DNA from: Perognathus longimembris pacificus
Taxonomy: Eukaryota > Chordata > Mammalia > Rodentia > Heteromyidae
Direction: 5' to 3'
NCBI RefSeq assembly: GCF_023159225.1
Contig: NC_063173.1
Coordinates: 10,082,852-10,146,851, forward strand
DNA length: 64,000 nucleotides
Shown: piece by piece, positions 7,018 through 42,610 of the stretch
Layout: every line of letters begins with the position of its first letter
How positions within the stretch are numbered: position 1 is the stretch's first letter
Notes under the pieces: model-generated
What the model saw: only the letters and a program-made list of their open reading frames with translations
Told to the model about the DNA's origin: nothing
Databases searched by the model: none
Program-made: the position numbers and the translations under genes

Positions 7018-7690
7018 TTACTTTCTTGTTATTGTAGAGGTGATGTACAGAGTGATTATAATTACAAGTCAGGTAATGAGTACACTTCCTTTTTTATTGT
7101 CAAACTGATATACAGAGAGGTTACAGTTTCATATGTTAGGCATTGGATACATTTCTTGTACAGTTTGTTATCTCGTCCCTCATTCCTCCCTCCCTCTTCC
7201 CCCTTTCCCTCTAAGTGAAGTGAGCCAGACCCACAGAAACATGGACTCTATGGTCTCCCTCATAGGGAATAATTAGCAAAGGTTTAGGCAAGTCACAGCA
7301 GAGGATCACAAGAGCCCAATAGCTATGCCCTTATGAACACATAAGATGATCCTAAGTGAAATGAACTCCATGTTATGGAAGCGAGTGTGATATCACTGTT
7401 GTAATTACTTTCAACATGCCATGTGAAACCGTAGTTTCTATTGTTGATGATCCTCTTGTATCCCCTTCCTGTGGTTGTACCTGTACATATCCTTTTGCAC
7501 AGTGGCTTCTATTCCCTCCCTCTCTCCTCAGCCCTCCCTCCTGTATCCACCCACAAGTTGTTGAGTTTATGTTCAGCAGTGACCAGTGAGTTCCACTGCT
7601 GCATGTTTTTACCCCTTTCCCCTCAGTTCTGTACCCTCCTCCCCCCTTCACAAAGATATAAATATGAGTACACCATATGTAAAAATGTCT
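7018..7690 (-). mobile_element. Old L1 3' end, split by a younger L1
   Basis: The flanks 7018-7079 (TTGTAGAGGTGATGTACAGA) and 7497-7690 (CCACCCACAAGTTGTTGAGT onward) align as one continuous reverse-strand L1 3' region. The intact counterpart is at 19437-19760. The young L1 at 7094-7482 interrupts it. Confidence 0.7.
7094..7482 (-). mobile_element. Young L1 with 5' inversion (twin priming) nested in an old L1
   Basis: 7094-7211 is the L1 3' end on the minus strand (ATTGTCAAACTGATATACAG, then the C-rich complement of the G-rich tract). At 7212 it switches to plus-strand ORF2-end and 3' UTR sequence (AAGTGAAGTGAGCCAGACCC) up to GTGGTTGTACCT. The flanks GTACACTTCCTTTT (7080-7093) and GTACATATCCTTTT (7483-7496) match at 12 of 14 bases. 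Confidence 0.85.
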
Positions 7691-8359
7691 TCTTTTCTTT
7701 ATGTATGGTGTATTCTAAAATATTTAAAAAGCAAAAACCTTTGGGAAGCACTGCTGTTACAGAATATGTATTTGTTTTCCTACTTAGAGACAAAGATGCC
7801 TATTGATGACTAAAACTTGAGGTTATTATTCTCAGTATAAACAATGCTCCTGAAAGAACAAATAGTGTGAAGTACTCCTCTTAGGAGGTACACAAGATAA
7901 TGAAAACTGGAGAAAAAGAAAGAAGACGGGTAGTTGCCAAGACTTGAGAGAGGGAGGAGAATTAGTGTTAAATGAGCATAGATACCACTTTACCAGATGA
8001 GAATTTTCTACTTATATGCATCTAATTAAATTTACTTTCTGTAGAAAGGAAGAAACTATAGCCCAGAAAGCATATGAACAACACAAGCCTCTGCATTGAA
8101 GTGATCTCTCTGTTTTTTAAACAACATTTTCTACTTTTAAATCGGGGACAATAGTTGGTTCAAGTTTTATTTTCACTATGGATATTTTCAGCTAGGATTT
8201 ATGAAGCTGAAATATACTTTTCACAGCAATTTCAATACACCTATGGCCTGCCATCCTTCTTAGGTTAATAAAATGAGCTGCTATTTATTGGGTCCTTACT
8301 CTATCTAGACCAGTGATACTTTTATTATTATTAAGTTGCTTGCATAATTTGTTGTGTTT

Positions 8360-8427
8360 TTTCTTATTTATTGTCAAAGTGATGTACAGAGAGGTTACAT
8401 TTTCATATGTTAGGCATTGGATACATA
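8360..8427 (-). mobile_element. L1 3' tail, very short, joined head-to-head to a SINE
   Basis: TATTGTCAAAGTGATGTACA and TATGTTAGGCATTGGATACA are the last 70 bp or so of the young L1 family in reverse. It is truncated exactly where a plus-strand SINE starts. Confidence 0.85.
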
Positions 8428-8616
8428 TGGCCTAGTGGTAAGAGTGCTTGCCTTGTATACATGAAGCCCTGGGTTCGATTCCCCAGCACCACATATATAG
8501 AAAACAGCCAGAAGTGGCACTATGGCTCAAGTGGCAGAGTGCTAGCCTTGAGCAAAAAGAAGCCAGGGACAGTGCTTGGACCCTGAGTCCAAGCTCCAGG
8601 ACTGGCCAAAAAAAGA
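8426..8616 (+). mobile_element. IDL-Geo-type SINE, 5' truncated, joined to an inverted L1 tail
   Basis: It starts at ATATGGCCTAGTGGTAAGAG, lacking the first dozen bases of the family (GGGGCTGGGA). It ends GGACTGGCCAAAAAAAG. Its 5' edge abuts an oppositely oriented L1 3' end (8360-8427), and the pair shares one flanking repeat. See findings. Confidence 0.85.
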
Positions 8617-8690
8617 AATTGTTGTGTTTAATTCTCACAAAGTCTATCATTGATGAGGATCAGGTGTTCCATGAGTAATTAATTAATTCA

Positions 8691-9589
8691 CTTAAAGGAA
8701 CCACCACACTAAGGTGCTAGATCTGAAGATCAACTCTGTCCACAGTTCTCAGTTGCTTTCAGAATATATGACTAAGAGTACATGTATACTCAGTTGCTAT
8801 AAATAAAAATCCTGTGAGGATTATTCAGGCTCTCCCATATTGCAGTGAGAAAGTTGCTGAAACTCTTTCAACTCTTCCCCTGAAAGAAATGGGCCATGTT
8901 AGTGTTCTCAAGACTCATCCACTGTATTCCATGCTGATGCTGAAAAGCATCAAGGTCTACTGGATAAAAAGAAATCATAGGACACTAGATGTGAAAAAGA
9001 AAAAAAAAACATTTGAGTCTGGAAAAGCATTCGGCGTTCCTGTGACTGCTAAACCTCCAATTATGGGAAGATTTCATAACTGGATTTTGTTCTGTGCTCT
9101 TTCACAGGAACTGAAAATGACATCAAAATTTTCTCATATTAGAATTAAAGAAATTAATATCCTCATACACTCCTGACACCCACTTACGTATCTTTAAAGA
9201 GATCTATCATCCTTGGAACTGCTTTTCCTTCTAACTTTAGTTTTGAAGCTAATTTCCCCCTTTATTGGGGGGGAAATACATACCACAAACTCTCTGACTT
9301 AAATGAAACTTTTCCACCTTGAACTTCAGCATGGTGGCTAGCTGCAAAGGCCCATGAACTCTATGCATCCCTGAGCTTTATTATGAGACTCACCCTAGTC
9401 ACGGCTCCATCCCCCTCACCAGCGCTACAACTTGCTCTCTACCCTGTCTACCAGTCACTGTGATTCTCTTTTAACTCCCTGTTCAGGGCTTCTAATATTT
9501 TCCCATTCATTTCCTTGGCTAGGTCTTCAGATTTCATACTTCTGAGGATGCCTTTCTTAAATTTCCAGATGAGGAAGGTCTTCTTGAAA
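8691..9589. other. Unassigned intron sequence
   Basis: No recognised repeat. A 120-codon frame at 8814-9176 has a poly-Lys run and no family resemblance. Confidence 0.5.
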
Positions 9590-27469: not shown

Positions 27470-27540
27470 TATATTTTTTAAATTTAGTTTTATGCTCAAG
27501 ATGATGTATTCAAGATGATGTACAAAGGGGTTATAGTTTC
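27470..27540 (-). mobile_element. L1 3' tail fragment fused to a SINE
   Basis: AAATTTAGTTTTATGCTCAA, then GATGATGTACAAAGGGGTTA, resembles the reversed old L1 tail. It contains a local duplication of TCAAGATGATGTA (27496-27508 and 27510-27522). It joins a SINE with no T run between them. Confidence 0.55.
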
Positions 27541-27714
27541 CCCAGTCCTGGGGCTTGGACTCAGGGCCTGAGCACCGTCCCTGGCTTCTTATTTTTGCTC
27601 AAGGCTAGCACTCTGCCACCTGAGCCACAGCCCATGTGGTGCTGAGGAATTGAACCCAGGACTTCTTGCATGCTAGGCAAGCACTCTGCCACTAAGCCAC
27701 ATTCCCAGCCCCTA
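27541..27714 (-). mobile_element. IDL-Geo-type SINE with internal deletion and no own A-tail
   Basis: On the plus strand it begins CCCAGTCCTGGGGCTTGGAC directly after L1-tail-like sequence, with no intervening T run. It ends ACATTCCCAGCCCC. About 30 bp at the monomer junction is missing: GAGCCACAGCCC runs straight into ATGTGGTGCTGAGG. See findings for a possible SINE-L1 chimera. Confidence 0.75.
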
Positions 27715-35654: not shown

Positions 35655-35850
35655 CTGCCCCTATTTGGGAAATGAACTATACAGCTTGGGGGGAAGGAGG
35701 AAAGAGGGGAGAAAACTAGAAGAAAATGAAGGAGAGAGTGACACTGTTCAAAAAGAAATGAACTTGGAACCTGACTTACATAACTGTAGCCCCTTTGTAC
35801 ATCACCTTTATGATAAAATTCATTTGAAAAATTAAAAATAAAAACAACAT
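35655..35850 (+). mobile_element. L1 3' end fragment
   Basis: AAATGAACTATACAGCTTGG, a G-rich tract, CATAACTGTAGCCCCTTTGT and ACATCACCTTTATGATAAAA are the last 200 bp of an L1. Confidence 0.75.
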
Positions 35851-36712: not shown

Positions 36713-36899
36713 TTTTTTTTTTCCAATCCTGGGACCTGAACTCAGAGCCCTGAGCTTCTTTTGCTGAAGGCTAGCACTCTACCACTTGAGCCACAGAGCC
36801 ATTTCTGGCTTTTGCTCTATATGTGCTTCTGAGTAATCAAACCCAGGGCTTCATGCATGTTAGGCAAGCACTCTACCACAAAGCCACATTCCTAGCCCC
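36713..36899 (-). mobile_element. IDL-Geo-type SINE, diverged
   Basis: A T run is followed by CCAATCCTGGGACCTGAACT and later ACCACTTGAGCCACAGAGCC, then CCACATTCCTAGCCCC. The order of the two monomers is normal. Several substitutions and small deletions (such as loss of part of GCACTGTCCCTGG) make it older than the copies at 17 kb and 24 kb. Confidence 0.8.
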
Positions 36900-40581: not shown

Positions 40582-42610
40582 GTAAAGACTTCTTTGAAGA
40601 GAACTTTAAAAGCTTGAAAAATGAAATTAAGTCAGAACTAAGGAAATGGAAAAACCTCCCATGCTCCTGGATTGGGAGGATTAATATAATCAAAATGGCA
40701 ATATTACCAAAGGCTATCTACAAATTCAATGCAATACCCATTAATATCCCAACACCATTTTTAATGAAATAGAGGAAGCAATCCAGAAATTCATATGGAA
40801 CAATAAAAGACCTAGAATAGCAAAAACAATCCTAAGCAGAAAGAACAGTGCTGGAGGAATTACAATACCCAACTTCAAGCTGTATTATAAAGCTATAATA
40901 ATAAAAACAGCTTGGTATTGGCAGCAGAACAGGCCTGAAGACCAATGGAACAGAACTGAAGACCCAGAAATGAACCCACAGAACTACGCCTACTTAATCT
41001 TTGATAAAGGAGCTAAAACAATAGTTTGGAAGAAAGATAGCCTCTTTAACAAATGGTGCTGGCAAAACTGGTTCAACACATGCAACAAACTAAAACTAGA
41101 TCCTTATATATCACCATGCACCAAAATCAATTCCAAATGGATTAAAGACCTCGAAATCAAAACAGACACCCTGAAAACACTAAAGGAAGGAGTAGGAGAA
41201 ACACTTGGGCTCCTTGGCGCAGGACGGAACTTCCTTAACAAAGACCCAGAAAGGCTACAAATCAAAGAAAGGTTGGACAAATGGGACTGCATCAAACTGC
41301 AGAGCTTCTGCATGGCAAAGGACATAGCATGCAAGATAAACAGAAAGCCCAAAGACAGGGAGAAAATCTTTACCGGTCATTCAATGGACAAAGGCCTCAT
41401 CTCTAAAATATATGCAGAACTAAAAAAAATTAACTTCCTCCTAAACAAAACCCCAAAGAACCAATAGCCCCTCATCAAGTGGGCTAAAGACTTACAAAGA
41501 GACTTCTCTGATGAGGAAATGAGAATGGCCAAGAGACATATGAAAAAGTGCTCTACATCACTGGCCATAAAAGAAATGCAAATCAAAACAACATTGAGAT
41601 TCCATCTCACCCCAGTAAGAATGTCCTATATCAAGAAAACTAACAATAACAAATGTTGGAGGCAATGTGGCCAAAAGGGAACCCTACTTCATTGATGGTG
41701 GGAATGTAAACTGGTTCAGCCACTCTGGCAAGCAGTATGGAGATTCCTCAGAAGGCTAAATATAGAACTCCCCTATGACCCAGCAACCCCACTTTTGGGT
41801 ATCTAGCCAAAAAACCACAAACAAAATCACAGTAATGCCACCAGCACAACAATGTTCATCGCAGCACAATTTGTCATAGCTTGAATCTGGAACCAACCCA
41901 GATTCCCCTCAGTAGACGAATGGATCAGGAAAATGTGGTACATATACACAGTGGAATTTTATGCCTCTGTCAGAAAGAATGACATTGCCCCATTTGTAAG
42001 GAAATGGAAGGACTTGGAAAAAGTTACACTAAGTGAAGTGAGCCAGACCCAAAGAAACATGGACTCTATGGTCTCCCTTATTGGGAATAATTAGCACAGG
42101 TTTAGGCAAGTCACAGCAGAGGATCACAAGAGCCCAATAGCTATACCCTTATGAACACATAAGACGATGCTAAGTGAAATGAACTTCATTTTATGGAAAT
42201 GATTGTTATATCACAGTTGTAACTACTTTCAACGTCCCATGTGTATCTGTAGCTTCTACTATTGATGATGTTCTTGTATCACCTTCCTGTGGTTGTATCT
42301 ACACTATCTCTGTAATCTTATCTAAGTATATTGGGAACCGTCTATACTGGTATTAGAACTAGGAAATTGAAAGGGAATACTAAAATCGAGAGACACAGGG
42401 TAAAAAAAGACAAATGACTACAAAAGCAATACTTACAAAGCTGTTTGGTGTAAATCAGCTGAACAACTCGTGAGGGGAAAGGGAAAGGGGAAGGGGGGAG
42501 GGGGGAATGAGGGAGGAGGTAACAAACAGTACAAGAAATGTATCCAATGCCTAACGTATGAAACTGTAACCTCTCTGTACATCAGTTTGATAATAAAAAT
42601 TAAAAAAAAA
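40582..42610 (+). mobile_element. L1, 5' truncated, the longest copy in the window (about 2 kb)
   Basis: It enters ORF2 at [20 protein letters not shown] and continues [20 protein letters not shown]. One open stretch of 165 codons (40970-41467) carries [20 protein letters not shown] and [18 protein letters not shown]. Several stops elsewhere, including TAG at 41465 and TAG at 41804, make it dead. ORF2 ends at AATAATTAG near 42092. The 3' UTR has a G-rich tract (42476-42508). The left target repeat AAACACTTATT (40571-40581) has its partner at 42658-42668, 48 bp after the first poly-A. Confidence 0.93.

Follow-up and report, generated by a model that had tools for sequence, protein, structure and literature searches.

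Twin priming in its classical form is reportedly that of Ostertag and Kazazian (2001). One L1 RNA is copied from two primers, and the two cDNAs, often joined through microhomology, give a 5′-inverted L1 (PMC2912911 and PMC12016303, in the portions available). For Alu, the available portions of the same sources give one inverted copy in 5554 insertions (PMC2912911) and 5′-inverted copies as 0.02% of 5936 germline Alus (PMC12016303). Twin priming with a second, unrelated RNA has been proposed for chimeras that contain snRNAs: in the accessible part of PMC4476161, 7 of 30 retrotransposon-associated snRNA copies (snRNA/L1 and snRNA/SVA) are assigned to twin priming, the cleavage site of four U5 copies fits the L1 endonuclease only from the L1 side, and the snRNA chimeras in opposite orientation are 3′-truncated, with target complementarity reported for the U5 ones. 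The accessible sections of PMC13174262 catalogue 452 chimeras of Alu and LINE-1 in humans, each flanked by a duplication of 7 bp or more, with a sense share of 83.2% (figure legend) or 88.5% (text), which by subtraction leaves about 52-76 that are not sense. RNA ligation or template switching is discussed there for the mostly sense Alu/LINE-1 cases, and twin priming is given as a general route to opposite-orientation chimeras.

We analysed a window of 64,000 nucleotides from the rodent Perognathus longimembris pacificus, in which a truncated L1 3′ end and a SINE lie between two copies of one short duplication (Table 1). This locus is very probably best read as a single insertion by the L1 machinery that was copied from two RNAs, i.e. 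chimeric twin priming. A single event is favoured because there is one outer duplication and no inner one, because the two parts are oppositely oriented, and because the endonuclease motif fits the L1 side only. The initial annotation had proposed one event on two RNA templates, and the shared duplication, the orientation and the endonuclease side support that part of it; the novelty it implied is unsupported in view of what the accessible parts of PMC4476161 and PMC13174262 report. Two-RNA twin priming is already a published route, to which the locus adds one more case.

With the snRNA chimeras, as described in the accessible part of PMC4476161, the locus shares two RNAs, opposite orientation, one duplication and the endonuclease argument from the L1 side; unlike those chimeras, which are 3′-truncated and internally primed, its SINE keeps an A-rich tail up to the duplication. 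It resembles the chimeras in the available text of PMC13174262 in holding a SINE and a truncated L1 within one duplication, and differs from those primate and mostly sense Alu cases in that the SINE is of another family, is antisense to the L1 and resides in another mammal. Two primed cDNAs joined in opposite orientation within one insertion are also the mark of classical twin priming, as far as the sources above present it, but here the RNAs are two different ones; the 5′-inverted Alus likewise have a SINE RNA copied from the second priming site, whereas there both cDNAs come from Alu. Among the matches listed from the open-licence literature (titles and abstract starts), none reported such a chimera with a geomyoid SINE, and this negative is the sole basis on which host and SINE family would count as new for chimeric twin priming.

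Table 1. Features of the L1/SINE locus and its flanks, in window positions.
Feature	Position	Strand	Basis
Left copy of target-site duplication, TTGTTGTGTTT	8349-8359	+	Exact repeat search, sequence reading
5′-truncated L1 3′ end, about 67 nt, ending ...GACAATAAATAAGAAA, short A-tail pointing left	8360-8426	-	Homology to L1 3′ ends at 7086-7152, 42538-42604 and 2867-2933
2-bp overlap AT common to L1 and SINE, head-to-head junction	8425-8426	.	Alignments
Near-complete SINE, first ~9-13 nt missing, A-rich tail 8608-8618	8425-8618	+	BLAST, alignments
Right copy of target-site duplication, TTGTTGTGTTT	8619-8629	+	Exact repeat search; right edge GTTT/AATT is the presumed first nick (top strand)
Left flank of target site, possible MIR remnant (weak)	8276-8348	+	Alignment to MIR
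Right flank of target site, possible MIR remnant (weak)	8630-8760	+	Alignment to MIR

Read from left to right, the locus consists of flank, TTGTTGTGTTT, the L1 part beginning TTTCTTATTTATTGTC... (8360-8426), the SINE part beginning ATATGGCCTAGTGG... (from 8425) and running to CTGGCCAAAAAAAGAAA (ending at 8618), the second TTGTTGTGTTT, and flank. BLAST and alignments show the two parts in opposite orientation with their 5′ ends meeting, so that homology over 8360-8426 and 8425-8618 confirms the head-to-head pair of minus-strand L1 tail and plus-strand SINE described in the initial annotation. Searched by BLAST within the window, 8360-8426 matches the L1 3′ end at 7086-7152 with 92.5% identity over 67 bp, and the L1 part matches that at 42538-42597 with 93.3% identity over 60 bp. 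Besides the locus, 13 L1 tails were recorded in the window, 11 of which were aligned (the short 27510-27540 and 35782-35817 were omitted). The relatives are homologous to the L1 part through ...GGCATTGGATACAT and then read TTCTTG, at which point the locus diverges. Across the junction, close L1 relatives show GGATACATTTCTTG, the locus GGATACATATGGCC, and young SINE copies CTGGGAATATGGCC or similar; because of these readings in the aligned relatives, we place the end of L1 homology at 8426 and the start of SINE homology at 8425, which bears out the earlier remark that the two parts have a few bases (AT) in common.

One of these relatives, at 42538-42604, is an L1 3′ end situated about 1.1 kb downstream (3′) of an open frame of 240 residues in L1 ORF2 (40745-41464, plus strand), in the same orientation. 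Over 228 residues the frame aligns with L1 ORF2 protein from solved structures (E = 1.2e-91), and tail and frame may belong to one element. A Pfam scan of three L1-like frames, this one included, matched no family.

The SINE part is 86-92% identical over 187-193 bp to its eight best other copies in the window, which contains copies on both strands (best match of the right half, 91.7% over 193 bp), and its homology starts with ATATGGCC (8425) and reaches the A-rich tail. We aligned 13 other copies with the locus; a further 13 shorter or weaker matches, some of them inside or beside those copies, were left unused. The element may be IDL-Geo of Geomyoidea, in which a Geo right part follows an ID-like left part, a name that reportedly comes from Gogolevsky and Kramerov (2006). 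An SP-D-Geo element is named in the available part of PMC5335264. In 11 of the 13 other copies we found a duplication of 9-16 bp (at most one mismatch) whose end lies 9-13 nt ahead of the base corresponding to 8425, at or close to where the SINE itself starts; the control SINEs at 36748-36889 and 27542-27702 showed no convincing duplication near the 5′ end. Because the control duplications end where they do, the locus SINE lacks only about 9-13 nt: it is truncated at its 5′ end, as had been annotated, but is almost complete.

Besides the copies at 8349 and 8619, the 11-mer TTGTTGTGTTT does not occur on either strand of the window, and of 5000 random placements in the window 14 gave a match of at least 11 bp at equal spacing. 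For the L1 part taken singly, exact matches on its two sides extend to 4 bp at most, a length attained by 4191 of 5000 random placements; the SINE part gives the same maximum (4536 of 5000). No exact duplication longer than 4 bp was found bracketing either part singly. With one mismatch allowed, the search returned a match of 7 bp that stops 19 bp short of the SINE; as it does not abut the element, we read it as chance. The initial annotation was thus right that one duplication, 11 bp long and unique in the window, encloses the pair, and that the second duplication which separate insertions would need is missing, with at most 4 bp of exact match around each part.

These results weigh against a history of two separate insertions, in which an L1 arrived first with its duplication and a SINE later landed exactly at the border between the truncated L1 and the right copy, leaving no duplication of its own, or in which the order was the reverse. 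With 13 other SINE copies and 11 other aligned L1 3′ ends, the window is rich in both families, so that some close neighbours are to be expected, and 2 of the 13 control SINEs are also without a convincing 5′-end duplication. Two insertions would nevertheless require that one exact base be struck, and an ordinary SINE insertion here should show its own duplication, because 11 of the 13 controls do; furthermore, the target on the SINE side is poor as an L1 endonuclease site. We consider such a history quite unlikely.

For the endonuclease comparison, a matrix was built from the 11 SINE target sites in the window that have a duplication near the 5′ end, the other two SINEs being dropped. The L1-side edge of the insertion, AATT/AAACAC (TT/AAAC), matches TT/AAAA at 5 of 6 positions and scores 3.19, a value that 2.5% of positions, counted over both strands of the window, equal or exceed. 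The SINE-side edge, TAAT/TTGTTG, matches at 1 of 6 and scores -6.23; 64% of positions do as well or better, and all 11 controls score higher (leave-one-out scores from -4.81 to 7.06). Against TT/AAAA, the controls match at 2 to 6 of the 6 positions, five of them at only 2 or 3. To judge from these motifs, it was most likely the L1 cDNA that was primed at the first nick. An insertion led by the SINE was rejected on account of the poor endonuclease motif on its side; the poor site would not suffice for this by itself, because the matrix comprises 11 sites and five of these match at 2 or 3 of 6.

The same motifs bear on the idea that a single chimeric RNA was inserted whole, a SINE beside an antisense L1 3′ end having been transcribed from an upstream start. 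One fused RNA would account equally for the one duplication and for the SINE tail at the right border, but its 5′ end must then fall just where the L1 A-tail ends, the endonuclease motif would be expected on the SINE side, where the fit is poor, and none of the 13 other SINE copies has an L1-tail match in the 150 bp preceding its 5′ end. This origin we judge very improbable. Hardly any credence attaches to a last pair of explanations, namely that the reverse transcriptase switched from the L1 RNA to an antisense SINE transcript or that a later deletion fused two insertions. Template switching by the L1 enzyme is described in the accessible part of PMC4476161, but such a switch requires an antisense RNA whose end falls exactly at the SINE A-tail. 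A simple switch along one cDNA was rejected, as the opposite orientation would not fit it; so was the later deletion, which makes no shared outer duplication and leaves the one at the locus unexplained.

If the locus is a single insertion from two RNAs, the first nick most likely served to prime copying of the L1 RNA, and the second copying of the SINE RNA. The L1 endonuclease would nick the top strand at GTGTTT/AATT, a site proposed from its sequence fit, and the T-rich 3′ end would pair with the A-tail of an L1 RNA and start reverse transcription there; orientation and tail suggest that synthesis stopped after ~67 nt. A cut in the other strand, 11 bp from the first, would free a 3′ end reading ...ACAACAA, which may have primed on a SINE RNA that was copied from the tail end to near the 5′ end. 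The two cDNA ends would then be joined through the 2-base microhomology AT, and fill-in would create the single 11-bp duplication.

The end of the second primer, ACAACAA, with its terminal AA, allows no pairing with the SINE A-tail. Pol III transcripts carry a 3′ trailer or a U-end. Because a primer ending in AA cannot pair with an A-tail, we infer either a SINE RNA with a U-containing 3′ trailer or Pol III U-end that paired with the terminal AA, or mismatched priming. Against the mechanism stands the fact that the second primer is unpaired with the SINE tail, whereas the U5 cases in the available text of PMC4476161 show target complementarity. The presence of the tail, together with the inability of ACAACAA to pair with A, also keeps the locus out of the 3′-truncated, internally primed subgroup of chimeras.

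Two separate ribonucleoproteins, one with the L1 RNA and one with the SINE RNA, might each have begun copying on its own side of one break, a suggestion that we regard as tentative and on the whole doubtful. If it is true, the second nick of an L1 insertion is open to a SINE that starts from its own tail, and if that route is common in the genome, SINEs have a regular path that bypasses their own target choice. The locus offers a clean and readable case of apparent twin priming in which two templates were used, a nearly complete SINE being the second of them, and if we are right the second end of an L1 break is usable by a SINE RNA with a non-pairing tail, which bears on second-strand priming. 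As the route is published, a single locus changes little; in a genome so rich in SINEs, a genome-wide count would turn an anecdote into a measurement. We discern no function in the chimera, which we see as a by-product of retrotransposition, and it appears to be a rare, previously described accident of the LINE-1 copying machinery, here at one locus.

Divergences of the two parts were measured against consensus sequences of the copies picked as closest (six SINE and three L1), each copy being scored against a consensus that contains it. The locus SINE differs from its consensus at 12 of 181 positions (the six copies at 4 to 18 of 180-181), and the L1 part from its own at 5 of 60 (the three copies at 1 to 5). 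These values allow a single date for L1 and SINE, in a test of low power.

According to the initial annotation, removal of the insertion restores a MIR, a claim that finds weak support at best. The flanks were joined by script before alignment to a MIR consensus. Under permissive scoring the joined flanks align to MIR without a gap across the target with a score of 36.1, which simulated sequences attained in 10 of 1000 cases and joined window segments in 22 of 975. Under strict scoring, the joined flanks gave no significant match to MIR (15, against a maximum of 16.3 in 200 shuffles), and a BLAST search with the MIR consensus returned no match in the flanks at E values up to 1. The occupied site outscores the joined flanks under both schemes (16.0 vs 15.0 strict, 38.0 vs 36.1 permissive), perhaps owing to a MIR-like stretch inside the L1 piece, at 8376-8397. 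A target within a MIR remnant is thus possible only, and our main conclusion is independent of it.

Several other retroposed fragments in the window were noted in passing. On the minus strand at 27510-27702, a SINE body ending in GGACTGG without an A-tail abuts a same-sense L1 3′ end of ~37 nt, whose best score was 26.5 against a maximum of 23.0 in 1000 shuffles. We found no exact duplication of at least 7 bp in the scanned flanks; the pair is a possible SINE/L1 chimera made by template switching. A very short L1 3′ end, ~43 nt with a T-run, lies at 198-272 with ATTTTTGAAGATTTGT on either side, from which it would seem that L1 inserts shorter than 50 nt occur in the window. Finally, 7022-7152 holds two directly consecutive L1 3′ ends in the same orientation, one of which was perhaps inserted into the other.
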